DNA from: Pseudomonadota bacterium
GTDB lineage: Bacteria; Pseudomonadota; Alphaproteobacteria; Rhodobacterales; Rhodobacteraceae
DNA: 64,000 nt
Assembly: GCA_020161615.1 (NCBI GenBank)
Contig: JAIUPD010000008.1
Span: 186,001 to 250,000 of the forward strand
Reading direction: 5' to 3'
Shown here: positions 12,848-41,443 of the stretch, piece by piece
Position numbering within the stretch: position 1 is the stretch's first letter
Layout of the letters: each line of letters starts with the position of its first letter
The notes under the pieces: generated by a model
Told to the model about the DNA's origin: nothing
Databases searched by the model: none
What the model saw: the letters and a program-made list of their open reading frames with translations, nothing else
Position numbers and translations under genes: made by a program

Positions 12848-13669
12848 TCAGGTCTTTGCGCCCCAGCTGAGCGAGGCCCGGCGTCGCGTGTAGAATTCGG
12901 CCATCAGACCCAGCAGCAGACAGGCCGCGGTAATGGCGACCGGGTAAAGCAGGCTGGTGTAATGCGGCGTGTAATTGAGAAAGGCAAAACCGCGCGCCTG
13001 GTCGATGATGTGAAACAGCGGATTCCAGGCGAAATAGGGCAGCATGAATCCGGGCAAGGCATTGGCCACGAACATCTTGCCCGAGGCGAACATGTTCACC
13101 CGCGTATAGATCTGCTGGATCAGCCCCACGAATTTCGGGGCCCAGGGCTTGGCCGCCAGAAAGATCGTTCCCACCGCCACGCCCGAGAACCAGGCCAGCA
13201 GCAGCATCAGGATGCAGCCCAGCGGATCATGGATGACCAGCGGCTGCCAGGCGGCGTGATAGAGGAACAGCACCACCGCGACCGACAGGATCTGGATATA
13301 CAACTCGCCCAGGGCGGCGGCGCCGATGGCGACGATCGTGTTCATCGGCGCGTGTTTCATCATCGCCGAGGTCGGCCCCTCGGCCCCGAAGACGGCGCCA
13401 ATGGCCTTGACGTGGCACATATACAGGAAGACGCCGGTCATCAGATAGAGCATGAAGTCGCCCCGGATTCCGGTCGGGCGCCAACCGCCGAAGGCGTAGA
13501 GCAGGTAAAAGACGCCCACCAGCATCAGGGTCTGGGCAATGTTCAGCATCAGGCCGATCAGCGCATTGCCATGCGCGTTGCGGACCGACCGGACGCCGGA
13601 ATGATAGATCAGCTCCAGAATCGTGAAGGCCGAGGCAACCCACGCTTCCTGTCTGCGGTTATTGAGCAT
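12848..13669 (-). CDS. ABC-2 type polysaccharide export permease (KpsM-like)
   Basis: A 273-residue inner-membrane protein with six predicted helices, matching the ABC-2 permease family that exports capsule or other polysaccharides (KpsM/RkpT/CtrC). Recognisable parts are a soluble cytoplasmic N-terminus, RGDFMLYLMTGVFLYMCHVK in helix 2-3, NPLFHIIDQARGFAFLNYTP in the loop before the last helix pair, and a C-terminal YTRRRASLSWGAKT tail. The cognate ATPase (KpsT-like) is not next to it and not in this window, so it must lie elsewhere. It fits with galU nearby and the glycosyltransferases in this window. Start ATG 13669 gives the family length. Confidence 0.82.
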   Translation of the reverse strand: MLNNRRQEAWVASAFTILELIYHSGVRSVRNAHGNALIGLMLNIAQTLMLVGVFYLLYAFGGWRPTGIRGDFMLYLMTGVFLYMCHVKAIGAVFGAEGPTSAMMKHAPMNTIVAIGAAALGELYIQILSVAVVLFLYHAAWQPLVIHDPLGCILMLLLAWFSGVAVGTIFLAAKPWAPKFVGLIQQIYTRVNMFASGKMFVANALPGFMLPYFAWNPLFHIIDQARGFAFLNYTPHYTSLLYPVAITAACLLLGLMAEFYTRRRASLSWGAKT

Positions 13670-23449: not shown

Positions 23450-23565
23450 GCCAATCTCCTGAACCTGTGCAGCAGAATGCCCGCTGGGGCGACGGGCGCA
23501 AGAGTGAAACGCGTCCGTGCCGCCGTCCCGTTGCGCGGCGCAGCCGGATCGCCTACATCAGGCGC

Positions 23566-24087
23566 ATGACGCTGAAACCCATCATCCTGCACCCCGATCC
23601 ACGCCTGAAGAAGCTCTGCGCCCCTGTCGAGGGCGTGACCCCTGAGCTGGGCAAGCTGGCCGAGGACATGCTGCAAACCATGTACGACGCGCCCGGCATC
23701 GGCCTGGCCGCGCCGCAGGTCGGCGTCATGCAGCGCCTCTTCGTCATGGATTGCGTCAAGGAGCAGGACGTGGCGCCGAAGCCCATGGTGCTGATCAACC
23801 CCGAGATCACCTGGACCTCGGAGGAGCGCAGCACCTATGAGGAAGGCTGCCTGTCGATCCCCGAGCAATTCGCCGAGGTGACGCGCCCGGCCCGGGTGCG
23901 GATGGCCTGGACCGGCCTCGACAACCAGCGGCACGAGGAAGAATTCGACGGCCTCTGGGCGACCTGCGCCCAGCACGAGTTCGACCATCTGAACGGCAAG
24001 CTGTTCATTGATTACCTTGGCCCGATCAAGCGCCAGCTGATCACGCGGCGCATGGAAAAGTTCAAACGCGAACGCGCGCGGGGGTGA
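23566..24087 (+). CDS. def: Peptide deformylase (canonical copy)
   Basis: Removes the N-formyl group from nascent proteins, next to fmt in function and location. The 173-residue protein has all three deformylase motifs intact: GIGLAAPQ at 44-51, EGCLS at 93-97 (metal ligand Cys95) and QHEFDH with ligands His137 and His141 and catalytic Glu138. The ATG at 23566 is chosen because the sequence upstream in frame has no family similarity. First gene of a forward run def - oxidoreductase - def2 - def-like - fmt, so this is probably the housekeeping enzyme. Confidence 0.95.
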   Translation: MTLKPIILHPDPRLKKLCAPVEGVTPELGKLAEDMLQTMYDAPGIGLAAPQVGVMQRLFVMDCVKEQDVAPKPMVLINPEITWTSEERSTYEEGCLSIPEQFAEVTRPARVRMAWTGLDNQRHEEEFDGLWATCAQHEFDHLNGKLFIDYLGPIKRQLITRRMEKFKRERARG

Positions 24088-24091
24088 GCCG

Positions 24092-25336
24092 ATGAGCCCG
24101 AGACACGGCGGGCTGAGGATCGGCATTGCCGGGGCGGGCATGGGCGGGCTGGCCGCCGGGATCGCGCTGACGCTGGCCGGCCACCGGGTCACCCTCTGCG
24201 ACCGGTTCAAGGCGCCGCGCCCGCTGGGCTCGGGGCTGGTGCTGCAGCCGGTGGGCCAGCGGGTGCTGTCCTATCTGGGTTGCCTCACGGCCGCCCGCGC
24301 GCTGGGCGCGCCGGTTCAGGTGTTGCACGGGGTCGAGGCGAGGACCGGAGCTGGCACGCTGAACGTGCGCTACGACCGGGCGGGCGCGGGCCTGCACGGG
24401 CTGGGCATGCACCGGGCCAGCCTGTTTCACGTCTTGCACGAAAGGCTCGTCTCGCTGGGCGTTACGGTCCTGCCCTCGGCCGAGGTGACGGGCCGCGAGG
24501 GTCAGTCGCTGGTCCTGGCCGATGGCCGTCGCCTTGGTCCGTTCGACCTGATCGTCGATGCTTTGGGCGCGCATTCGCCGCTGACGCCCTTGCGGTCGCG
24601 GATCCTGCCCTATGGCGCGCTCTGGACCACGCTGCGCTGGCCGGCCACTGATCTGCCCGACGATCGCCTCACCCAACGCTATGTCGCGGCGCATCGGATG
24701 GTGGGCGTGTTGCCCATCGGCCGGATGCCTGACGACTCCCAACCCCTCGCCGCCTTCTTCTGGTCGCTGAGGGGCAGCGATTACGCCGATTGGCAGGCGC
24801 AGGGCCTGATCCCCTGGAAAACCGAGATCCTGTCGATCTGGCCTGCGCTCTCGCCCTTCCTCGCCCAGATCACCGATCCCGCGCAGATGGTCTTCGCCCG
24901 CTACGCCCATGGCACGCTCTACCGTCCCCATGGCGACCGGATCGTCCATCTGGGCGACGCTTTCCACCGCGCCAGCCCGCAGCTGGGGCAGGGGGCGAAC
25001 ATGGCGCTGCTCGACGCGCTGGCGCTGGCCCGGGCGCTGGATCAGGCGGGACCGGAGGACGCGCCCGCCCTCTATGCGAAGATCCGCCGTGGCCATGTCG
25101 CGGTGTTCCAGACCGCGAGCCGATTCCTCACCCCGCAATACCAGTCCGACAGCCGCGCCGTGGCCTGGTTCCGCGACCGGATCGTCGCGCCTCTGGGCCG
25201 GGTCCCGCCGATGCCGCGGGTCATGGCCGCCATCGCCGCAGGCCTGATCGTGCCGCCCCTGGGCGGTGAGCCCTATCACGACGGCCGCCCCGTTCCGCCT
25301 GTCTGGGCGATGGACGAGGGCGAGGGCGGGTGGTAA
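24092..25336 (+). CDS. FAD-dependent monooxygenase-like oxidoreductase
   Basis: A 414-residue flavoprotein of the aromatic hydroxylase group. The N-terminal Rossmann motif LRIGIAGAGMGGLAAGIALT (G-x-G-x-x-G) binds ADP of FAD. The second FAD signature is IVHLGDAFHRASPQLGQGAN (G-D-A-x-H near the family's GD motif), and FDLIVDALGAHSPL fits the middle DG-type motif. Similar proteins include salicylate- and UbiH-like hydroxylases. It starts 4 bases after def and ends just before the second deformylase gene, an odd insertion in a deformylase/fmt operon. Substrate unknown. Confidence 0.8.
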   Translation: MSPRHGGLRIGIAGAGMGGLAAGIALTLAGHRVTLCDRFKAPRPLGSGLVLQPVGQRVLSYLGCLTAARALGAPVQVLHGVEARTGAGTLNVRYDRAGAGLHGLGMHRASLFHVLHERLVSLGVTVLPSAEVTGREGQSLVLADGRRLGPFDLIVDALGAHSPLTPLRSRILPYGALWTTLRWPATDLPDDRLTQRYVAAHRMVGVLPIGRMPDDSQPLAAFFWSLRGSDYADWQAQGLIPWKTEILSIWPALSPFLAQITDPAQMVFARYAHGTLYRPHGDRIVHLGDAFHRASPQLGQGANMALLDALALARALDQAGPEDAPALYAKIRRGHVAVFQTASRFLTPQYQSDSRAVAWFRDRIVAPLGRVPPMPRVMAAIAAGLIVPPLGGEPYHDGRPVPPVWAMDEGEGGW

Positions 25337-25345
25337 CCGGGCCTC

Positions 25346-25855
25346 ATGTCCATCCTGCCCATCGTCCTTTTCCCCGATCCGATGCTGCGCCGGCCCTGCA
25401 CGCCGGTGGTGGCGATTGACGCGACCCTCCGCCAACTGGCCGCTGACATGCTGGAAACCATGTATGCCGCGCCCGGAAGGGGCCTTGCCGGGCCGCAGGT
25501 GGGGGTGGCGCTGAGGCTGTTCGTCATGGATGTGACCTGGAAGGAAGGCGAACCCAGCCCCCGCACCTGTATCAATCCGGTGATCCTTGAGGCCTCGGAC
25601 ACGCTGGCCGAGAATACCGAAGGGTGCCTCTCGATCCCCGGCATCCCGGCGCTGGTCTCGCGCCCCGACTGGATCGTCTTGCGCTACACCGATCTGGAGG
25701 GGCAGGAGCGGACCGAACGCCTGACCGGCTTCGAGGCCGTCGCCGCCCAGCACGAACTGGACCACCTGAACGGCCGCCTCTGCATCGACCTGATGGATGA
25801 GGAAAGCCGCGCCGCCGCCTCGCCCGCCCTCGCCGCGATGGGAGCCCTGCCATGA
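25346..25855 (+). CDS. Second peptide deformylase
   Basis: A 169-residue paralogue of the upstream def with all catalytic residues kept: GRGLAGPQ at 44-51 (the usual second Ala replaced by Gly), EGCLS at 92-96 with Cys94, and QHELDH with His136, Glu137 and His140. It should therefore be active. Divergence from the first copy outside the motifs is high, so it is not a recent duplication. Its stop overlaps the third copy's start (ATGA), so expression is linked. Confidence 0.88.
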   Translation: MSILPIVLFPDPMLRRPCTPVVAIDATLRQLAADMLETMYAAPGRGLAGPQVGVALRLFVMDVTWKEGEPSPRTCINPVILEASDTLAENTEGCLSIPGIPALVSRPDWIVLRYTDLEGQERTERLTGFEAVAAQHELDHLNGRLCIDLMDEESRAAASPALAAMGALP

Positions 25856-26343
25856 TCCGCCGTTGCCTGCCCTGGCCCGACGCCCGCTTGCGCACGCCCG
25901 CCGCCCCGGTCGAGGCGATCACGGATGAGATCCGCGCCATCTGGACCGACATGATCGACACGATGGAGGCGATGCCCGGCGTGGGTCTGGCCGCGCCGCA
26001 GATCGGCGTGATGCTGCGGCTTGCGGTGGTCGATGCCTCGGACACCCGCGGTCAGGCGGTGCGCATGGCCAATCCCGAGGTGCTGCACGCCTCGGTGCAA
26101 CTGCGCCCGCATGAGGAAGCCTCGCCCAACCTGCCCGGCGTCTCGGCGGTGATCGAGCGGCCCCGGGCGGTGACGGTGCGGTTTCTGAACGAGGCCGGGG
26201 AGGTCGAGGAGAAGGATTTCGTCGGCCTCTGGGCGACCAGTGTCCAGCACCAGATCGACCACCTGAACGGGCGCATGTATTTCGACCGGCTGGGAAAGGT
26301 GAAGCGCGACATGCTGCTGCGCAAGGCAAAGAAGGCGGGGTGA
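25852..26343 (+). CDS. Degenerate deformylase-like protein, probably inactive
   Basis: A 163-residue deformylase homologue. Motif 1 is intact (GVGLAAPQ from about residue 43), but motif 2 reads EASPNLPG from residue 89, so the metal-binding Cys is replaced (Ser at 91). Motif 3 reads QHQIDHLNG, so the catalytic Glu becomes Gln134, while His133 and His137 remain. Loss of both Cys and Glu should abolish deformylation. The rest of the fold is well preserved and there is no frameshift, so the protein is probably kept for another purpose (binding, regulation). It directly precedes fmt. Confidence 0.85.
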
Positions 26344-31895: not shown

Positions 31896-33170
31896 GTGAC
31901 CGCTGCCACCTCGGACGTCATCCTGCAACGCCTGATGGCGCTGCATCCGAAGATCATAGACCTGACGCTGGATCGCGTCTGGGCGCTGCTGGAAAAGCTG
32001 GGCAATCCCCAGAACGACCTGCCGCCGGTGATCCATGTCGCGGGCACCAACGGCAAAGGCTCGACCCAGGCGATGATCCGCGCCGGGCTGGAAGCCGCAG
32101 GCAAGACGGTGCACGCCTATACCTCGCCGCATCTGGCGCGGTTTCACGAGCGGATCCGCGTGGCAGGCGAGCTGATCACCGAACCCGACCTCGCCGCGCT
32201 GCTCGATGAATGCGAGGCGGTGAATGGTGGCACGCCGATCACCTTCTTCGAGATCACCACCTGCGCCGCGATCCTGGCTTTCGCCCGCACGCCAGCGGAT
32301 TATCTGCTGCTGGAAGTGGGCCTCGGCGGGCGGCTCGATGCCACGAATGTGGTGGCGAAACCGGCGCTGACCATCATCACCCCGGTGTCGATCGACCATC
32401 AGCAGTATCTGGGCGAGACGCTGGCCGAGATCGCGGGCGAAAAGGCCGGGATCCTCAAGCGCGGCGTGCCCTGCGTCGTGGGCCCGCAGGCCGATGACGC
32501 GCTGGCGGTGATCGAGGCCAAGGCCGAGCGCCTTTCCGCGCCGCTGATTGTCGCCGGTCAGCATTGGTTCGCCTTCGAGGATGCCGGGCGGCTGGTCTTC
32601 CAGGACGAGAACGGACTTCTGGACCTGCCGCTGCCCAACCTGCCCGGCCCGCACCAGATCGAGAACGCCGGCGCCGCCCTGGCCGCCCTGCGTCACCTGG
32701 GCTTCGATGCCGATGCCTGCGAGGCGGCGGTGACCGAGGCTTATTGGCCCGCCCGCATGCAGCGCCTGCGCCAGGGTCCGCTGGTCGAACAGGCACCCGA
32801 GGTCGAGCTTTGGCTGGACGGCGGGCATAACCCGGCGGCGGGCGAGGCCATCGCGGCGACGCTGGACCGGCTGCCGCCCCGGCCGACGCGGATCATCTGC
32901 GGCATGCTCAACACCAAGGACGTGAGGGGCTTCATGCGCCCGCTGGCGGGCCATGCCGAGGGGCTCTATGCCGTGTCGATCCCGGGCGAGGCCAATACGC
33001 TTGCTGCCGAGGCCACGGCCGAGGCTGCCAGCGCCGCCGGACTGACCGCGCAGACCGCCGAGTCGGTTCAGGCGGCGCTGGGAGCGATCATCGCCGAGGT
33101 GCCTCAGGCCCGGGTGCTGATCTGCGGCTCGCTCTATCTTGCCGGGGCGATCCTGCGCGAAAACGGCTGA
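31896..33170 (+). CDS. folC: Bifunctional folylpolyglutamate synthase / dihydrofolate synthase
   Basis: Adds Glu to dihydropteroate and further Glu residues to folates. The 424-residue protein has the P-loop IHVAGTNGKGSTQAMIRAGL and the following YTSPHLARFHERIRVAGE, then LLLEVGLGGRLDATNVV, and SIDHQQYLGETLAEIAGEKAG with the DH residues, all standard Mur-ligase-family FolC motifs. The C-terminal domain carries LWLDGGHNPAAGEAI. GTG start at 31896, immediately after accD. Followed by a strong terminator. Confidence 0.95.
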   Translation: MTAATSDVILQRLMALHPKIIDLTLDRVWALLEKLGNPQNDLPPVIHVAGTNGKGSTQAMIRAGLEAAGKTVHAYTSPHLARFHERIRVAGELITEPDLAALLDECEAVNGGTPITFFEITTCAAILAFARTPADYLLLEVGLGGRLDATNVVAKPALTIITPVSIDHQQYLGETLAEIAGEKAGILKRGVPCVVGPQADDALAVIEAKAERLSAPLIVAGQHWFAFEDAGRLVFQDENGLLDLPLPNLPGPHQIENAGAALAALRHLGFDADACEAAVTEAYWPARMQRLRQGPLVEQAPEVELWLDGGHNPAAGEAIAATLDRLPPRPTRIICGMLNTKDVRGFMRPLAGHAEGLYAVSIPGEANTLAAEATAEAASAAGLTAQTAESVQAALGAIIAEVPQARVLICGSLYLAGAILRENG

Positions 33171-33194
33171 ACCGACGCCGCCGCAGCGATTGAA

Positions 33195-33226
33195 AAAACC
33201 CGTGACGCCCCAGCGTCACGGGTTTT
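33195..33226 (+). terminator. Strong terminator after folC
   Basis: A 14-bp perfect stem (aaaacccgtgacgc / gcgtcacgggtttt) with a CCCA loop; its T-rich end on the forward strand and A-rich start make it a good terminator for folC and, on the other strand, for the metalloprotease gene ending at 33246. Confidence 0.9.
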
Positions 33227-33245
33227 CGCGTCTCAGGCCGGCCAC

Positions 33246-36200
33246 TCAGTTCGGCGCGGCATAGACATAGCCGGGGATCGGATTCGCCTCGGTCGTGCCG
33301 TTGCCCAGCTGCCCCGAGTCATTGGCCCCCCAGCACAGCGCATTGCCCGTGCTGTTGATGATGCCGCAGCTGTGCAGGCCTCCGGTCGTCAACTGGTCCA
33401 TCGGCGTTTCCGAGGCTGCGACCATCACCGGCCGCCAGCGGTTGCTCATCGTGCCGTCGCCCAACTGCCCTGCCGTGTTGTTGCCCCAGCAATAGGCGCT
33501 GCCGTCCATGGCCAGGGCGCAGGTATGCAGGCCCCCGGCGCTGACCTGGACGATGCTCTGCACCGGCAGCCTCAGCACGCGCACCGCCTGCGGGCGGTCG
33601 GTGAACGACCCGTCGCCCACCTGGCCCGAGCTGTTCGATCCCCAGCAGAAGACGTTGTTGAAATTGTGCACGGCGCAGGTGTGACGGCTTCCGGCCGTGA
33701 TCTGGCGCACCCGGCCGAAGGGAATCACGTTGGTCGGCTGGTTGCGGTTGGTGGTGGTGCCGTCGCCCAGCTGGCCTGCGTCATTGGCCCCCCAGCACAA
33801 CACCATCCCCGTGTCGCGCAGGGCGCAGGTATGGTTGCCGCCCGCGGTCAGCGCCACGACCCGGCGCAGGCCGATCACGCTGACCGGCGTCAGCCGGTCG
33901 ATGAAGGTCCGGTCGCCCAGCTGCCCCGCGCCATTGGCCCCCCAGCACGACACGGTGCCGTTGCTGTGCAGCGCGCAACTATGCTCGGCCCCGGCCACCA
34001 CCTGCGTCACCCGCCGCAGTCCGGGGACCGAGACCGGCCGCCAGCGGCCCTGCGTGGTGCCGTCGCCGACCTGTCCCGCATTGTTGCGACCCCAGCAATA
34101 GGGGCGTCCATTCTCGCGCAGGGCGCAGGTGTGGAAATCCCCCAGCGCGATGTCGCGCGAATAGACCGGGATCGGCTGCGGGTTCAGCTGATCGTCGTTC
34201 GAGGCATTGCCGACCTGGCCGTTGATGTTGTCGCCCCAGCAAAAGAGCGCCCTGTCGGTGGTGCGCGCGCAGCTGTGGCTGCCGCCTGCCACGATCTGCG
34301 GTCGGCTGATGATCGTCAGCGGCTGCGCGGCCGAGGTCGAACCGGCGAAGATGCCGTCGCCGCCATAGACCGCGGTGATGGCGCTGCTCCCCATCGGCAA
34401 GGTGGTGACATCGACGCTGGCGCGCCCGGTGATGTCCAGCGCGCCGGTGGCGACTTCCACCCCGTCGCTGCGGAAGCTGACGCTGCCGGTCGGCGTACCG
34501 CCCGGGCCGCTGACCACGGCGGTGACATTCGTCGGCTCCTGGAAATAGCCCAGCGAGGGCACGGTCAGTGTGGTGGTGGTCGCGACCTGCGTGGTCTCCA
34601 GGATGACGGTGAGGGTGATGTCGCCCTCCTCGCCGCTGTAGCCTGCGACGGCGATCTGGTACTCGACCCCGGCCGTAGCAACGAACGCGACCTCCGACTG
34701 GTAGAGGCAGGTGTCGTCATCCTCGCCCACCAGAGACAGCGCGTTGACCGCAACCCCGGTAAAGACCGCCAGAATGGTGTCGAGATCGCTGCCGCAGGTG
34801 TTGATGGTCAGCGTTCCGTCCGTCGCCGGGGTGAAGCGCCACCAGACCGCATTGGCGTCGCTGAAGCCCTCGATCACCGGCTGTCCGGCTTCGGCGGTGG
34901 CGTCGATCGTGGTGCCGGTGACGGTTCCCGGGGCGGCGATGGTGATGCGGTTGGCGAAGTCGTCATTCGCCGGACGGACCACCACGCGCGGCACGATGGT
35001 CAGGGTCCGCGCGGCCGAGGCCGAGGCGGTGAACCCGGCGCTGCCCAGAAAATGCGCGGTGATCTGATAGGTGCCGACCGGCAGCGTGGCGACGCTGAGG
35101 CGGGCCTGCCCCTGCGCATCGAGCGCGCCCTGGCCGATCTCGGTTCCGTCGCGCCGGAAGCTGACCATGCCGTTGACGACCCCCTGCGCGGCGCTGACCG
35201 AGGCCTGGAAGAGCACCGAATCGCCCTCGGTCGCCTGGGCGCCATTGCCGGGCGAGACCAGCATGGTCGTGGTCGTGGCGGGCGCCGCCGGGTTCATCGA
35301 GAGATTCAGGGCAATGGTGCCGCTGGCGTCGAGCTTGCCCGCGACCGCGATCTGGTATTCGGTTCCGGCCAGTGCCTGAAAGGTGACGCTGGCATTGAGT
35401 CCGCAGAAATCGTCATTCTCGGCCACCGGTGTCAGCGTATTGACCGCCGCGCCCGTGAACACCGCCACCACCGAATCGAAGTCGCTGCCGCAGGTGCTGA
35501 CCGTCAGCTGCCCGTTGACCGTGGGGATATAGCGCCACCAGACGGTATTGGTCGCGCCGGCCGCGAGCGTCGGCTGGCCGGCCTCGGCCGTCGCGTTGAC
35601 ATTGGTGCCGGCCAGGGTGCCCGGCGCCGCGATCAGCACGCGGTTGGCGAAATTGTCGTTGATCGGGGCGCCGCCGGCGCCGACCTCGGGCCGATAGGCG
35701 GCGACCGCCTCGCGCACGGCGTTGAGCCAGCGCGCGGCATTGGCTGCGCCCGGGTTGCCCGCCAGAATGCCGGTGGTCTGGCCGTTGTAGCTGACCTCGG
35801 GGTTCGAGAAATGGTTGATCCGGGTGCAGCTGACACCCTGATCCGAGCACCGGTTGGCATAGGCCATGATCGTGCGGAACCGCGAGGGCACGTCAACATA
35901 GCCGTATTGGTCCGCCGTATCCGGCGGCGTCGGGCTGACCACGTAGCGGTCATGGTTGACCCCGGCGTTATGCCCCAGCTCATGCACGAAAGTGTGGTTC
36001 GAGATGCAATTGACCGCCGTGACCGAATAGGCCAGATGCGCCGTTGCCGGCCCGGGCACGTCCGGCAGATAGCCGATGCCGCAATATTGGCTCGAGGCGG
36101 AAACCAGCAGGGCCACCAGATCGGCCCCGCGGGCATCGCGTTCGGTATGAACGGTCTGGAAGCCGGGGATCGTTGCCAGCCGCAGGTCTTCCAGCATGGT

Positions 36201-36995
36201 CTCCATGTCGGTCTCGGCGTAATTCTGCACCTGGACCAGGCCCACAAGCCGGTACTGAATCAGCACATTGCTGTTGGTGAAGCCGGTATTGGCCAGCGAG
36301 ACCGCAAGATTGGCCGCGCTTTCGATGCCCGAGGCCGCCGCCGAGGTATAGGCGACCAGCACGTCGATCGTCGTCACGGTATCCGACTGCACCCGGTCGA
36401 AGGGCAGGGCGTCCTGCAGTGCCCCGTGGTCATCGTGGTCGCCGTGGTCGTCATGCGGCGGATGGCCCTCGCTGGGGAAACCCGCGCTGTCCAGCTCGGT
36501 GATGCGATGGATGCCGCCCTGGGCGATGGGGTCGATCCGATAGCTGCGGGGCTCGGCGCCGCCGATCTCCACATGGCCGGTGACGGTCCCGTCGCGGATC
36601 ACCAGATTGGCCAGCGCCTCGACCGGGCTCTGCGCGGCGCCGGTCCAGACATAGCCGCCGCCGAAAGCCTCGGAGATCGAGGTGCGCTGGAAATCCACCA
36701 CGATCCCGGGGAACAACTCGATCCGCACGCTGGTCGGCTGCGGCACCGCGCTCAGCCGCCCGGGCTGCCGGTCCATGCCGAGCGGGGCGATGGTATCGGC
36801 CAGATAGGCCTGATCGAGGATCACGTCGCGCGCGCGGCTGGTCGCCAGAAACGGCGGGGCGGTATCCGCCGCGGCAGAGCGCTGGGGCGCCGTGCCCAGG
36901 AAAAGCCCGTCGGCTGCGGCGCTCTGGGAAGACGCGATGACGATGAACAGAAGAACAAGAAAGCGGCGGGCGACCGAATAGGCGAACGGATACAT
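33246..36995 (-). CDS. Secreted zinc metalloprotease with Ig-like repeats and a seven-fold RCC1 propeller
   Basis: A 1249-residue exported protein. Residues 1-28: signal peptide (FLVLLFIVIASSQSAAA). About 178-191: His/Asp-rich HPPHDDHGDHDDHG. About 210-440: metzincin-type protease with HELGHNAGVNHD (338-349; three His ligands and Glu) and Met-turn TIMAY (375-379). About 445-565 and 677-798: two similar beta-sandwich repeats (NDNFANR.. and NDDFANR..). About 573-668 and 803-896: two Ig-like (Big_3-type) repeats. About 900-1249: seven RCC1-type repeats of about 50 residues with CWG at 919, 967, 1017, 1067, 1117, 1169, 1221, each with a preceding Cys (HTCALR-type) suited to a disulfide. The C-terminus lacks RTX or T9SS signals. 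The protease type is clear; the substrate and the role of the propeller are not. Confidence 0.88.
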   Translation of the reverse strand: MYPFAYSVARRFLVLLFIVIASSQSAAADGLFLGTAPQRSAAADTAPPFLATSRARDVILDQAYLADTIAPLGMDRQPGRLSAVPQPTSVRIELFPGIVVDFQRTSISEAFGGGYVWTGAAQSPVEALANLVIRDGTVTGHVEIGGAEPRSYRIDPIAQGGIHRITELDSAGFPSEGHPPHDDHGDHDDHGALQDALPFDRVQSDTVTTIDVLVAYTSAAASGIESAANLAVSLANTGFTNSNVLIQYRLVGLVQVQNYAETDMETMLEDLRLATIPGFQTVHTERDARGADLVALLVSASSQYCGIGYLPDVPGPATAHLAYSVTAVNCISNHTFVHELGHNAGVNHDRYVVSPTPPDTADQYGYVDVPSRFRTIMAYANRCSDQGVSCTRINHFSNPEVSYNGQTTGILAGNPGAANAARWLNAVREAVAAYRPEVGAGGAPINDNFANRVLIAAPGTLAGTNVNATAEAGQPTLAAGATNTVWWRYIPTVNGQLTVSTCGSDFDSVVAVFTGAAVNTLTPVAENDDFCGLNASVTFQALAGTEYQIAVAGKLDASGTIALNLSMNPAAPATTTTMLVSPGNGAQATEGDSVLFQASVSAAQGVVNGMVSFRRDGTEIGQGALDAQGQARLSVATLPVGTYQITAHFLGSAGFTASASAARTLTIVPRVVVRPANDDFANRITIAAPGTVTGTTIDATAEAGQPVIEGFSDANAVWWRFTPATDGTLTINTCGSDLDTILAVFTGVAVNALSLVGEDDDTCLYQSEVAFVATAGVEYQIAVAGYSGEEGDITLTVILETTQVATTTTLTVPSLGYFQEPTNVTAVVSGPGGTPTGSVSFRSDGVEVATGALDITGRASVDVTTLPMGSSAITAVYGGDGIFAGSTSAAQPLTIISRPQIVAGGSHSCARTTDRALFCWGDNINGQVGNASNDDQLNPQPIPVYSRDIALGDFHTCALRENGRPYCWGRNNAGQVGDGTTQGRWRPVSVPGLRRVTQVVAGAEHSCALHSNGTVSCWGANGAGQLGDRTFIDRLTPVSVIGLRRVVALTAGGNHTCALRDTGMVLCWGANDAGQLGDGTTTNRNQPTNVIPFGRVRQITAGSRHTCAVHNFNNVFCWGSNSSGQVGDGSFTDRPQAVRVLRLPVQSIVQVSAGGLHTCALAMDGSAYCWGNNTAGQLGDGTMSNRWRPVMVAASETPMDQLTTGGLHSCGIINSTGNALCWGANDSGQLGNGTTEANPIPGYVYAAPN

Positions 36996-37229
36996 GGGGC
37001 CTCGAATCAGGGGGCTGTGCCGGGAATCGGGCCTTTATAGCAAGCGCTCAACACCCATCCAGACAGCAATTTTTCCCCAATCGGCGACTCTTCCGCAAAA
37101 ATCGGCGCGGCGCGGCCTGTCCCGCCGCAAGCGCCGCGCAGGTGGCGGCCGACTGGGCGGGCCGGGTGGTGACGGGCTGCGGCCGGCTTCGGCGTTGCGG
37201 CGGGGCGCGTTGTTCCGTAACCCTGCCTC

Positions 37230-38315
37230 ATGTCGCTCAGCCTTGTCCGCCTCACCCTCTCGCGCTTTCGCTCGCATCCGCGGGCCGATCTGGCCTTCGA
37301 CGGGCGGGTTGTGGTGCTGTACGGCGACAACGGCGCGGGCAAGACCAACCTGCTGGAGGCCATCTCGCTGTTGTCGCCCGGCCGCGGCCTGCGCCGGGCC
37401 GCGCCCGAGGAATTGGGCGCCCAGCCCGCGGGCCTGGGCTGGAAGATCGGGGCCGAGATCGACCATCGGGGCACCGGGCATGAGATCGAGACCGCCGCCG
37501 CCCCCGGCCAGCCGCGCAGCGTGCGGATCGACGGCAAGGCGGCGGCGCAATCGGCGCTGGGGCGTCTGGCGCCGATGCTGTGGCTCACGCCCGCCATGGA
37601 CCGGCTCTGGATCGAGGGGGCCGAGGGGCGGCGGCGCTTTCTCGACCGGCTGGTGCTGGGCTTCCAGCCCGACCATGCCGAGGCCTCGCTTGCCTATGAC
37701 AAGGCGATGCGCGAACGAAACCGCCTGCTGCGCGAGGGCGTGACCGATGCCCGCTGGTACGCCGCGCTGGAGGCGCAGATGGCCGATGCGGGCGCCCGCG
37801 TGACCGAAGCGCGGCTGGCGACGCTCGACCGTCTCGCCGCGGCGCAGGACCCGGACAGCCCTTTCCCTCAGCCCGACCTGACGCTGGCGGACGACAGTCC
37901 CGAGGATCTGGCCACCGCGCTGGCCGAGAACCGGCGCCGGGATCTTTCGGCCGGGCGCACGCTGGTCGGGCCGCATCGCGCCGACCTCGCCGCGCTCTGG
38001 GCGGCGCGGGGGCGGGTGGCGGCGCAATGTTCGACCGGCGAGCAGAAGGCGCTCCTGATTTCCACTTTGCTGGCCCATGCCAGGGCGCTGCACGCCGACC
38101 GGGGCCATGCGCCCTTCCTGCTGCTGGACGAGGTGGCGGCGCATCTCGACGACGGACGGCGCACGGCACTGTATGACGCGCTCTGCGCCATGGGGGTGCA
38201 GGCCTTCCTGACCGGCACCGGGCCTGAACTCTTCACCCCCCTCGGCGCGCGGGCGCAGGCCTTCCGGCTGGGCGAAACCGCCGGGGAAACCCACCTGACG
38301 GAGACTGAGCTATGA
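37230..38315 (+). CDS. recF: DNA replication and repair protein RecF
   Basis: ATPase that guides RecA loading at single-strand gaps with RecO and RecR. The 361-residue protein has the Walker A VVLYGDNGAGKTNLLEAISL near residue 35, a QxR-type region, and a signature/Walker B region LRGHTLVGPHRAD-like (AGRTLVGPHRADLAA), then CSTGEQKALLISTLLA and FLLLDEVAAHLDDGRR. Length is standard. In many bacteria recF sits between dnaN and gyrB, whereas here it is about 10 kb from dnaN and 17 kb from gyrB. Its stop overlaps the VOC gene start. Confidence 0.94.
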   Translation: MSLSLVRLTLSRFRSHPRADLAFDGRVVVLYGDNGAGKTNLLEAISLLSPGRGLRRAAPEELGAQPAGLGWKIGAEIDHRGTGHEIETAAAPGQPRSVRIDGKAAAQSALGRLAPMLWLTPAMDRLWIEGAEGRRRFLDRLVLGFQPDHAEASLAYDKAMRERNRLLREGVTDARWYAALEAQMADAGARVTEARLATLDRLAAAQDPDSPFPQPDLTLADDSPEDLATALAENRRRDLSAGRTLVGPHRADLAALWAARGRVAAQCSTGEQKALLISTLLAHARALHADRGHAPFLLLDEVAAHLDDGRRTALYDALCAMGVQAFLTGTGPELFTPLGARAQAFRLGETAGETHLTETEL

Positions 38316-39780: not shown

Positions 39781-40141
39781 AAGCCGGCCCTGCCGCGCTG
39801 CTGACAGGGGTGGATGCCGGCGCAGATGTCCGGGGCAAGGCTGCTTTCGGGCGCCGGACCGTGTGATTCGCCATCGCGGCCCGCGCAACCCGGGATGGAA
39901 AGGGCAACTGAATTGCCCGCAATCCGGTCGCGCGCCCTGACGGCGACAGCACCCCGAACGCGCCTGTTCGTGACAAGTTCACGCAACGTCAACCTGAATC
40001 TCCGCCGAAGAGACGCTGCGGGGTCAATTCCGGTTGATCGCTTCCGGCAGTTCCGGGACGATTTTTGATGAGCGGCGGGGTCTGCATCGCTTGCACCACC
40101 ATCCCGCGCGCTCGTCAGAGCAAATCCTGGGGGGGATAGCC
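39781..40141. other. 361-bp intergenic region, no gene found
   Basis: No coding frame with a plausible start or family match. It holds a short hairpin gggcaa-ctgaa-ttgccc (39902-39918) without a T-run and ends with the ribosome-binding site GGGGGGAT of the next gene. Likely the promoter region of the beta-barrel gene at 40142; I cannot place -35/-10 boxes. Confidence 0.5.
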
Positions 40142-41290
40142 ATGAAAAACGGAACCTGCGATCGGTGGAGGCCCATTCATTCCTGTGCGGCGGCGGCGGG
40201 GGCGGCCGCGTTTTTCCTGGCGGGCACCGGCACCGCCCGCGCGGATTACCTGGAGGTCTGCCGCGATGCTCAGGCGAGGGGTGAGGTGCTGGACCAATCC
40301 TGCACCGAGGCGCTGCGCCGCGAAGAAGATCGGCAATCCTTCGGGCTATCGCTCGGCACCAGCCAGTACACGCTGGGACCCCGCGCGTTTCTGGCGCGCG
40401 AGAATCTGGGGACCAACGTGCTGGAACTCGGTATCGCCAGGCCCGGCAGCCATGTGCGGACCAACACCTATGGGCTGGAGTATTCGAGCGACGGCTTCTC
40501 GCCCTTCGGTCTGTCGTCCAGTTCGTCCCTGCCCTTCGGCGGCGAGGTCTGGCGGATCTTTGGCAGCCTGATGTGGTCCGAGGGCAGCGCCAATACCTTT
40601 TTCCCGACCATCGACCCGGGCGCGGGGCATGGCCTGGGCATCCCGGGCATCAACGGCGGTGCCAGCGGGATCTTCCTGCCGGTCAATCCGCAGAACACCG
40701 TGGTCGATGCCGAGCACCGGGTCGAGATCCGCTGGGGGCAGGTCGACCTGAACCTCGGTTTCGCGACGGATGACAACCTCTATACCCCGGACTTCCACGT
40801 CGGTCTGCGCTACAGCGACCTCGACCAGCGGGAACGATTCGGCGGCGACATTCCGGGATACGGGGCCGGATCGGGGTTCCAGTATCAGTTCCACACGGAA
40901 ACCCGTGCTGTCGGCATCCATGCCGGCTTTTCGGGCGCGGTGCCGTTGCGCAGCAACGATTCCTGGGACGTTGCGCTGCGCTATGCCGGGGAATTCGGCG
41001 TCGCGCGCATCGCGGGCGACGGGTTCGCCCAGCTGGAGAATTACGGCACGCTGGCGGTCGTCCCGCCATCGAGCAACACCTTCGACATTTCGGGCTACGG
41101 AGCCTATGCCTCGTTGCAGGCCTCGCTCGAGGCGCGTTTCAACGAGCGGTTCTCGGCCCAGCTTGGCGTGCGGTATGACCTCCGCCCCTGGGGCGCAGGT
41201 TTCTCGGGGGATGGGACAAACCCGTTCACCATGCAGTTCCAGGACATGCAGGTCGTGACGGCCTTCCTGGGCGCACGCGTGCGGTTCTGA
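40142..41290 (+). CDS. Predicted outer-membrane beta-barrel protein
   Basis: A 382-residue exported protein. The N-terminal stretch includes AAAAGAAAFFLAGTGTARAD as signal peptide. The mature part begins with a Cys-bearing DYLEVCRDAQARGEVLDQSC segment, then alternating amphipathic strands (FGLSLGTSQYTLGPR, GIHAGFSGAVPLRSNDSWDV, ALRYAGEFGVARIAG) and ends VVTAFLGARVRF, a terminal Phe as required by the BAM insertion machinery. Length suits a 14-18 strand barrel. It lies between two paralogous glycosyltransferase genes. Porin, adhesin or polysaccharide channel are all possible; no named family recognised. Confidence 0.72.
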   Translation: MKNGTCDRWRPIHSCAAAAGAAAFFLAGTGTARADYLEVCRDAQARGEVLDQSCTEALRREEDRQSFGLSLGTSQYTLGPRAFLARENLGTNVLELGIARPGSHVRTNTYGLEYSSDGFSPFGLSSSSSLPFGGEVWRIFGSLMWSEGSANTFFPTIDPGAGHGLGIPGINGGASGIFLPVNPQNTVVDAEHRVEIRWGQVDLNLGFATDDNLYTPDFHVGLRYSDLDQRERFGGDIPGYGAGSGFQYQFHTETRAVGIHAGFSGAVPLRSNDSWDVALRYAGEFGVARIAGDGFAQLENYGTLAVVPPSSNTFDISGYGAYASLQASLEARFNERFSAQLGVRYDLRPWGAGFSGDGTNPFTMQFQDMQVVTAFLGARVRF

Positions 41291-41443
41291 GACCGGCCAC
41301 AGGTCGAGCAGGCGCGCCGGTCGTTCCGGCCCGCCTGCCGATGGCCCCTGCGCGGCCCGCCGGGCACCCGGACTGAAAGTTTTCGGTTTGATCCTGATTC
41401 GCTCTCCGGTATTTTCGGGGGAAATCCCTTAGGGACGGGCAGT

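Follow-up and report, generated by a model that had tools for sequence, protein, structure and literature searches.

The stretch of DNA analyzed here (the window) comprises 64,000 nucleotides of a Rhodobacteraceae genome (assembly GCA_020161615.1, contig JAIUPD010000008.1, positions 186,001 to 250,000) and carries a gene for a predicted M12B metalloprotease that ends in seven RCC1 repeats. The gene is complete, occupies positions 33246..36995 of the minus strand, and runs from an ATG at 36995 to a stop codon at 33246-33248, encoding 1,249 amino acids; a first-pass annotation of the window had placed it at the same coordinates without giving a strand. All features of the protein described below lie on the minus strand. 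In order, these are a signal peptide, a propeptide-like region, a His/Asp-rich linker, the M12B domain, a sandwich domain, a Big_3_5 domain, a second sandwich domain, a second Big_3_5 domain and the seven RCC1 repeats. The protein has 22 cysteines, with an even number in each domain and none before residue 305, and all 22 were kept in the single full-length orthologue, from Pararhodobacter aggregans.

Using our own Nei-Gojobori script on this one sequence pair (window and orthologue), a dN/dS of 0.20 was obtained for the whole gene, which indicates purifying selection; by region, the catalytic domain gave 0.14, the RCC1 repeats 0.17 and the propeptide region 0.40. The Pfam E values, the existence of a 90% identical orthologue and the dN/dS of 0.20 together exclude a chance open reading frame (ORF). 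A second frame of 1,222 amino acids was seen opposite the gene on the plus strand (33372-37040); it is probably a shadow ORF arising from the GC-rich coding DNA.

Catalytic domain

Residues 205 to 440 (35676..36383) matched the M12B (reprolysin/adamalysin-like) family, with an E value of 3.8e-12 for Pfam Reprolysin_4. Three Pfam families scored above their cut-offs, namely, Reprolysin_4 (46.7 bits; cut-off, 22), Reprolysin_3 (45.1 bits; cut-off, 22.4) and Reprolysin_5 (41.7 bits; cut-off, 27), and Reprolysin_2 fell below its own (15.7 bits; cut-off, 27). The metzincin-type motif HELGHNAGVNHD and the Met-turn TIMAY, both picked out in the first-pass annotation, were borne out. The former constitutes a complete HExxHxxGxxHD zinc site at residues 338 to 349 (35949..35984), and the latter occupies residues 375 to 379 (35859..35873), with M377 invariant. 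When the window protein, its orthologue and seven relatives were aligned, the zinc-binding residues and the T, M and Y of the Met-turn were invariant in all nine sequences, which for the zinc motif is by choice, as the relatives were picked for HExxH. When the profile of this alignment was compared with the PDB, the best sequence matches were CpaA (6o38; E value, 9.7e-9) and adamalysins. Judged by its sequence, the protein is an M12B metzincin with an intact zinc site, and zinc-dependent proteolysis is predicted for it.

The RCC1 propeller

Seven RCC1 repeats, predicted to form a single propeller, were identified at residues 901 to 1249 (33249..34295) with a Pfam E value of 2.3e-67. RCC1 was matched in seven Pfam stretches, and WD40_RLD scored 274 bits against a cut-off of 150. 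The repeats are about 50 residues long and share a mean pairwise identity of 41%; in a six-frame search, the seventh covered only positions 2 to 29 of the 50-position RCC1 profile, because the protein ends there. Each repeat holds one pair of cysteines, arranged as C-x9-CWG in six repeats and C-x10-CWG in the last, in agreement with the first-pass count of seven repeats with a Cys pair apiece. That annotation had also raised the idea of disulfide stabilization, and the pairs do sit as in the repeats of plant CRINKLY4, for which passages of the published account infer disulfides (PMC4617170). The disulfides of the propeller are likewise predicted here.

AlphaFold2, run on a 33-row alignment (window, orthologue and 31 viral-contig rows of 32 to 39% identity), produced a model with a pLDDT of 92.4, a pTM of 0.90 and 28 strands, that is, seven blades of four. 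The model was weaker at its termini (52 for the first ten residues and 75 for the last ten), and it supersedes a single-sequence prediction with a pLDDT of 50. Foldseek placed UVR8 first (TM score up to 0.93; 1.6 Å), followed by HERC2, RPGR, HERC1 and RCC1, with BLIP-II at rank 47 (TM scores, 0.56/0.73). The seven repeats were thus predicted as one propeller that superposes on the closed propeller of UVR8, in line with the possibility raised in the first-pass annotation.

N terminus, export and the central domains

Residues 1 to 28 (36912..36995) read by eye as a Sec-type signal peptide, with RR, a hydrophobic core and SQSAAA before DG, in support of the export proposed earlier. Residues 29 to 200 (36396..36911) contain no cysteine and may act as a propeptide. 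No Pfam match to this region was found up to an E value of 10, and the N-terminal regions of M12B homologues look similar to it when compared by eye. The protein lacks the cysteine-switch propeptide of eukaryotic ADAMs, its cysteines all lying from residue 305 onwards; such a switch is not known to be required in bacteria. The His/Asp-rich segment noted at first pass, HPPHDDHGDHDDHG, is present at residues 178 to 191 (36423..36464). It was rejected as a conserved metal switch or family feature, being five residues shorter in the orthologue and rare among homologues; only 1 of 92 other homologues measured had more His per 16-mer.

The secretin GspD (TIGR02517), sought as an indicator of a type II secretion system (T2SS), scored above the cut-off in all eight genomes of the genus tested, the gene's own genome included, and also in 2 of 14 control genomes. 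Lysine occurs once in the 1,249 residues. Among 25 window genes measured, six exported-looking genes, including this one, had 0 to 0.49% lysine, and the other 19 had 1.4 to 6.8%; the names and exported status of the five other low-lysine genes are presumed. Flagellin, one of the 19 and also exported, breaks this pattern (2.82%).

Between the enzyme and the propeller, a first sandwich domain (residues 446 to 571; 35283..35660; Cys pair 502/531) and Ig-like Big_3_5 domain (residues 575 to 670; 34986..35273) are followed by a second sandwich domain (residues 678 to 804; 34584..34964; Cys pair 734/763) and Big_3_5 domain (residues 806 to 897; 34305..34580), the Ig-like domains being assigned by Pfam and by a profile search. 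The sandwich copies are identical at 66 of 125 positions (53%) and the Ig-like copies at 41 of 92, so the region looks like a tandem duplication at the sequence level. The two near-duplicate domains and two Ig-like repeats described at first pass were therefore recovered, and the duplication stood. The name beta-sandwich, which comes from that annotation, was not confirmed, as the sandwich domains gave no credible Pfam or PDB match and the second gave sub-threshold Pfam matches only.

Distribution, fusions and origins

A search of the gene's own genome and 99 relatives identified matches in eight of the relatives, of which one (G010) was full length, with 90% identity over residues 6 to 1249; the others aligned to the RCC1 or Ig parts only. 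The full-length orthologue is that of P. aggregans D1-19 (L073). Residues 1 to 440 matched in three of 394 genomes of the family, one being the gene's own and the other two weak (E values, 8.6e-5 and 6.2e-4), and the catalytic domain matched in 27 of 398 genomes of the phylum, again counting its own. A scan of a genome collection confirmed at least 330 relatives, of which the best 80 loci were kept. Among 109 homologue loci (L044 to L152), 102 carried an ORF with the motif intact, and our RCC1 profile matched in two, the orthologue and L054. Two clear fusions in 109 loci imply that the M12B domain does not need RCC1; two is a minimum, since some ORFs were cut off at locus ends. This survey, suggested by the first-pass annotation, shows a rare combination of parts that are individually of known kinds. 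Among the papers listed in searches of openly licensed PMC literature on RCC1 with metalloproteases, peptidases or secretion, none described the architecture in its title or the opening of its abstract, which fits the first-pass remark that no described function was known for it.

The proteobacterium that holds L054 (G525) encodes two paralogues, L153 and L156, each with an M12B domain and seven RCC1 stretches by Pfam. In the L153 fusion (L153:1225-6984), a cyclophilin-type isomerase domain follows the propeller. A further M12B protein (L154, genome G775) had a weak RCC1-like match (WD40_RLD; E value, 2.1e-9; 37.6 bits against a cut-off of 150), with RCC1 itself below the cut-off. An RCC1 tree was built from 39 domains counted as exactly seven repeats, with L156 and other arrays dropped. 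The window protein and its orthologue fell in a group of 15 rows (support, 100/99), which also holds a cutinase-RCC1 protein from a Rhodococcus plasmid and, from the same family, RCC1 proteins that lack a zinc motif. Five to seven cysteine motifs were counted in all 15 rows of this group and none in the other 24 (23 viral-contig rows and L153). The tree is to be read with the cautions that L153 sits on a long branch and its placement is unsure, that amino acid composition is uneven in many rows and that the bootstrap had yet to converge. In a quick catalytic tree (97 domains; seven rows excluded beforehand), both G525 paralogues joined a group of 10 rows (SH-aLRT, 99) that excludes the window protein, the deeper placement of which was not settled. 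As the G525 fusion occupies separate branches in the trees of both domains, metzincin and RCC1 were, on these sequences, probably joined at least twice.

The RCC1 proteins without a zinc motif bear on whether the propeller serves mainly as a structural or maturation module, a disulfide-rich C-terminal cap that aids folding, recognition by the T2SS or resistance to proteolysis, binds no target and is lost on export. A closed fold stabilized by disulfides resists proteolysis. The C-terminal domains of Mep72, a metzincin of Pseudomonas aeruginosa, are most likely removed while it is exported or afterwards, according to passages of the paper describing it (PMC4334185). Against such a cap, RCC1 proteins with seven repeats and this Cys type occur without the protease, and the RCC1 repeats of the window protein are under about the same constraint as the protein overall (dN/dS, 0.17 and 0.20). 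We regard the cap as rather unlikely.

Other RCC1 arrays were encountered in these searches. In Rhodococcus qingshengii, the plasmid-borne protein (L259:3896-6430) joins a cutinase to an RCC1 array of the Cys type, with the propeller first. Genome G057 encodes several seven-repeat RCC1 proteins without a zinc motif (L010, L017, L022, L026, L030 and L034); most or all of their repeats hold a Cys pair, and some of the genes are adjacent. In viral contigs (L157 to L232), where a single-sequence RCC1 query found none and an alignment query did, exactly seven RCC1 repeats were present in 46 of 94 clusters with complete ORFs among the matches listed; 20 clusters had 12 to 14, 20 to 21 or 34 to 35 repeats, and 28 had 1 to 4, 6, 8 to 10 or 16, all counts including near-duplicate contigs. 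The arrays of 12 to 14, 20 to 21 and 34 to 35 repeats suggest tandem propellers. The first-pass annotation had likened the seven blades to those of eukaryotic RCC1; the count was upheld, but given the 46 viral-contig clusters it is not special. Viral contigs were rejected as a source of the protease, since 17 stretches fitted a pattern and none encoded a relative. On plasmids, catalytic relatives were present in 51 records, all below 60% identity, and in none of the 141 plasmid or 29 phage records that matched did any place cover 80% of the whole protein.

Genomic surroundings

The protease gene lies between two genes that we take to be folC and recF. A hairpin followed by a U-run stands directly after the stop codon (33193..33226, minus strand), between the gene and the end of folC; it was spotted by eye and, when folded, gave −25.6 kcal/mol with a z score of −5.6, making it a probable terminator. 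A pattern scan for promoters and terminators listed none, this hairpin included. In the genome of the orthologue, the gene sits in a colinear stretch of 16.5 kb with 90.6% identity. Of ten genomes compared over this region (window 33170-37230), the two that carry the gene were the only ones in which folC and recF flank a single gene; in the other eight they were apart, and dnaN adjoined recF instead. As folC and recF are not neighbors in those eight genomes, the gene looks to be at a rearrangement point.

Elsewhere in the window, the segment at 39781-41376 is absent from the corresponding place in P. aggregans and lies between two related genes, about 70% identical in DNA and presumably glycosyltransferase-like. 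Rfam matched Cis2_sRNA at 12953-13104 (88.5 bits), and three ORFs that we take to be peptide deformylase-like lie at 23467-26343 near a presumed fmt-like gene. PADLOC reported no match to a defense system.

These surroundings also bear on a suggestion of the first-pass annotation, that the protein is an effector. An effector or virulence-type protein acting on eukaryotic cells, such as protists, with a propeller mimicking eukaryotic RCC1 or UVR8, would have a precedent in Legionella, the RCC1-repeat effectors of which are tied to the Ran cycle in passages of PMC7157520. The Cys pairs and the Sec-type signal, however, point to the extracellular space rather than to injection, the gene sits between folC and recF, UVR8 and HERC2 outrank RCC1 among the best PDB matches, and seven-repeat RCC1 arrays are found in viral contigs as well. 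Nothing that points to a eukaryotic target was seen in the protein or its neighbors, and we consider this role very improbable.

Proposed function

On balance, with some confidence, we favor a zymogen-type M12B exoprotease, exported by a T2SS, in which the propeller is a disulfide-stabilized binding head. In its favor are the intact zinc site, the predicted propeller, the conserved cysteines, the purifying selection, the GspD gene in the genome and the low lysine content shared with other presumably exported products of the window, and Mep72 and BLIP-II are the nearest functional precedents. The Sec signal would direct the protein to the periplasm, where its cysteines would be oxidized, and the folded protein would then presumably leave the cell through the T2SS. 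Residues 29 to 200 would hold the enzyme inactive until their removal, probably autoproteolytic, close to the His/Asp linker. The two sandwich-Ig pairs would form a stalk, and the closed, disulfide-pinned propeller would fix the enzyme to an extracellular protein or matrix target, much as BLIP-II grips beta-lactamases with a related fold. The role in substrate recognition or adhesion proposed at first pass is a plausible one for the propeller.

Several points weigh against this reading. The T2SS was judged from its secretin GspD, and closure of the ring was read from the superposition of a model on UVR8. None of the neighboring genes suggests a binding partner, and a clear fusion was found in only two of the 109 homologue loci. 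BLIP-II is a distant match and differs in being an inhibitor rather than a tail, with three-stranded blades and a PDB chain of 273 residues. As Mep72 sheds its tail, the propeller might also leave before the enzyme acts.

An overlapping proposal retains the protease and changes its target. The enzyme would act on the envelope or biofilm matrix of the cell that makes it, for example by turning over surface proteins, and the propeller would anchor it to the cell surface. Mep72 is itself described as a biofilm-secreted metzincin in PMC4334185, and the outer membrane vesicle proteins of Myxococcus xanthus include an RCC1-repeat protein, as stated in part of PMC4158809. Set against this are the absence of any C-terminal anchor motif visible by eye and the scarcity of the gene, which most of the genus lacks (the full-length protein was found in 1 of 17 other genomes of the genus, several of them incomplete). 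An envelope or matrix target is doubtful, albeit a little less so than the cap considered above.

RCC1 propellers are familiar mainly as regulators inside the cell. We put forward tentatively, at somewhat less than even odds, that those of bacteria serve generally as targeting modules outside the cell, which would resemble carbohydrate-binding modules but probably grip proteins. Separate events would have joined such modules to different exoenzymes, namely, a cutinase and, probably on two or more occasions, M12B proteases. In one lineage a Cys pair per blade would stabilize them in the extracellular space, and they would occur also in multipropeller proteins of viral contigs, the gene described here being a clean example of its use in aiming a protease. 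If secreted enzymes do carry exchangeable, disulfide-stabilized heads of this kind, a testable role would follow for many unexplained RCC1 proteins of bacteria and viral contigs, and the propeller of the window protein could by itself serve as bait for its ligand. The second, probably independent, metzincin fusion makes the idea testable by comparison.

Comparison with known systems

Mep72 (NF052434) resembles the window protein in having a metzincin domain, aligned at residues 209 to 440, followed by binding domains, and differs in that the latter are two tandem carbohydrate-binding domains. On the Mep72 equivalog model the window protein reached 116.9 bits, far short of the 645 required, and is therefore a relative of Mep72 and not Mep72 itself. 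Secretion of Mep72 requires the Xcp T2SS, and its form outside the cell is of about 25 kDa, most likely the metzincin domain, according to sections of PMC4334185. The Acinetobacter protease CpaA was the top PDB hit for the catalytic profile, as noted above, and the window protein scored 35.9 against the CpaA cut-off of 750. CpaA is a T2SS substrate, and to our knowledge it has no RCC1 propeller.

Of the propellers, that of Streptomyces BLIP-II (1jtd) is a structural match and a secreted bacterial propeller of seven blades, as the one described here is predicted to be. Passages of PMC6121496 give it a picomolar Ki for TEM-1 and three-stranded blades; the model of the window propeller has 28 strands for seven blades. 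The ectodomain of CRINKLY4/ACR4 (7a0j) has seven extracellular repeats with C-x10-CWG, as set out in part of PMC4617170, and the window repeats follow this pattern with a difference of one residue, having x9 in six repeats and x10 in one. CRINKLY4 differs in bearing 39-residue repeats on a receptor kinase rather than repeats of about 50 residues on a protease, and a Pfam scan of the window protein found neither its receptor kinase nor its TNFR domains. The best structural match, UVR8 of Arabidopsis, is an intracellular UV-B photoreceptor, and we know of no protease domain or Cys pairs of this type in it. Human RCC1, the Ran guanine nucleotide exchange factor, ranked below UVR8, HERC2 and RPGR. 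The two G525 proteins share with the window protein the M12B domain and seven RCC1 stretches; they differ in carrying DUF11 and TSP3, together with cyclophilin in L153 or PKD in L156, and L153 has no Cys motif.

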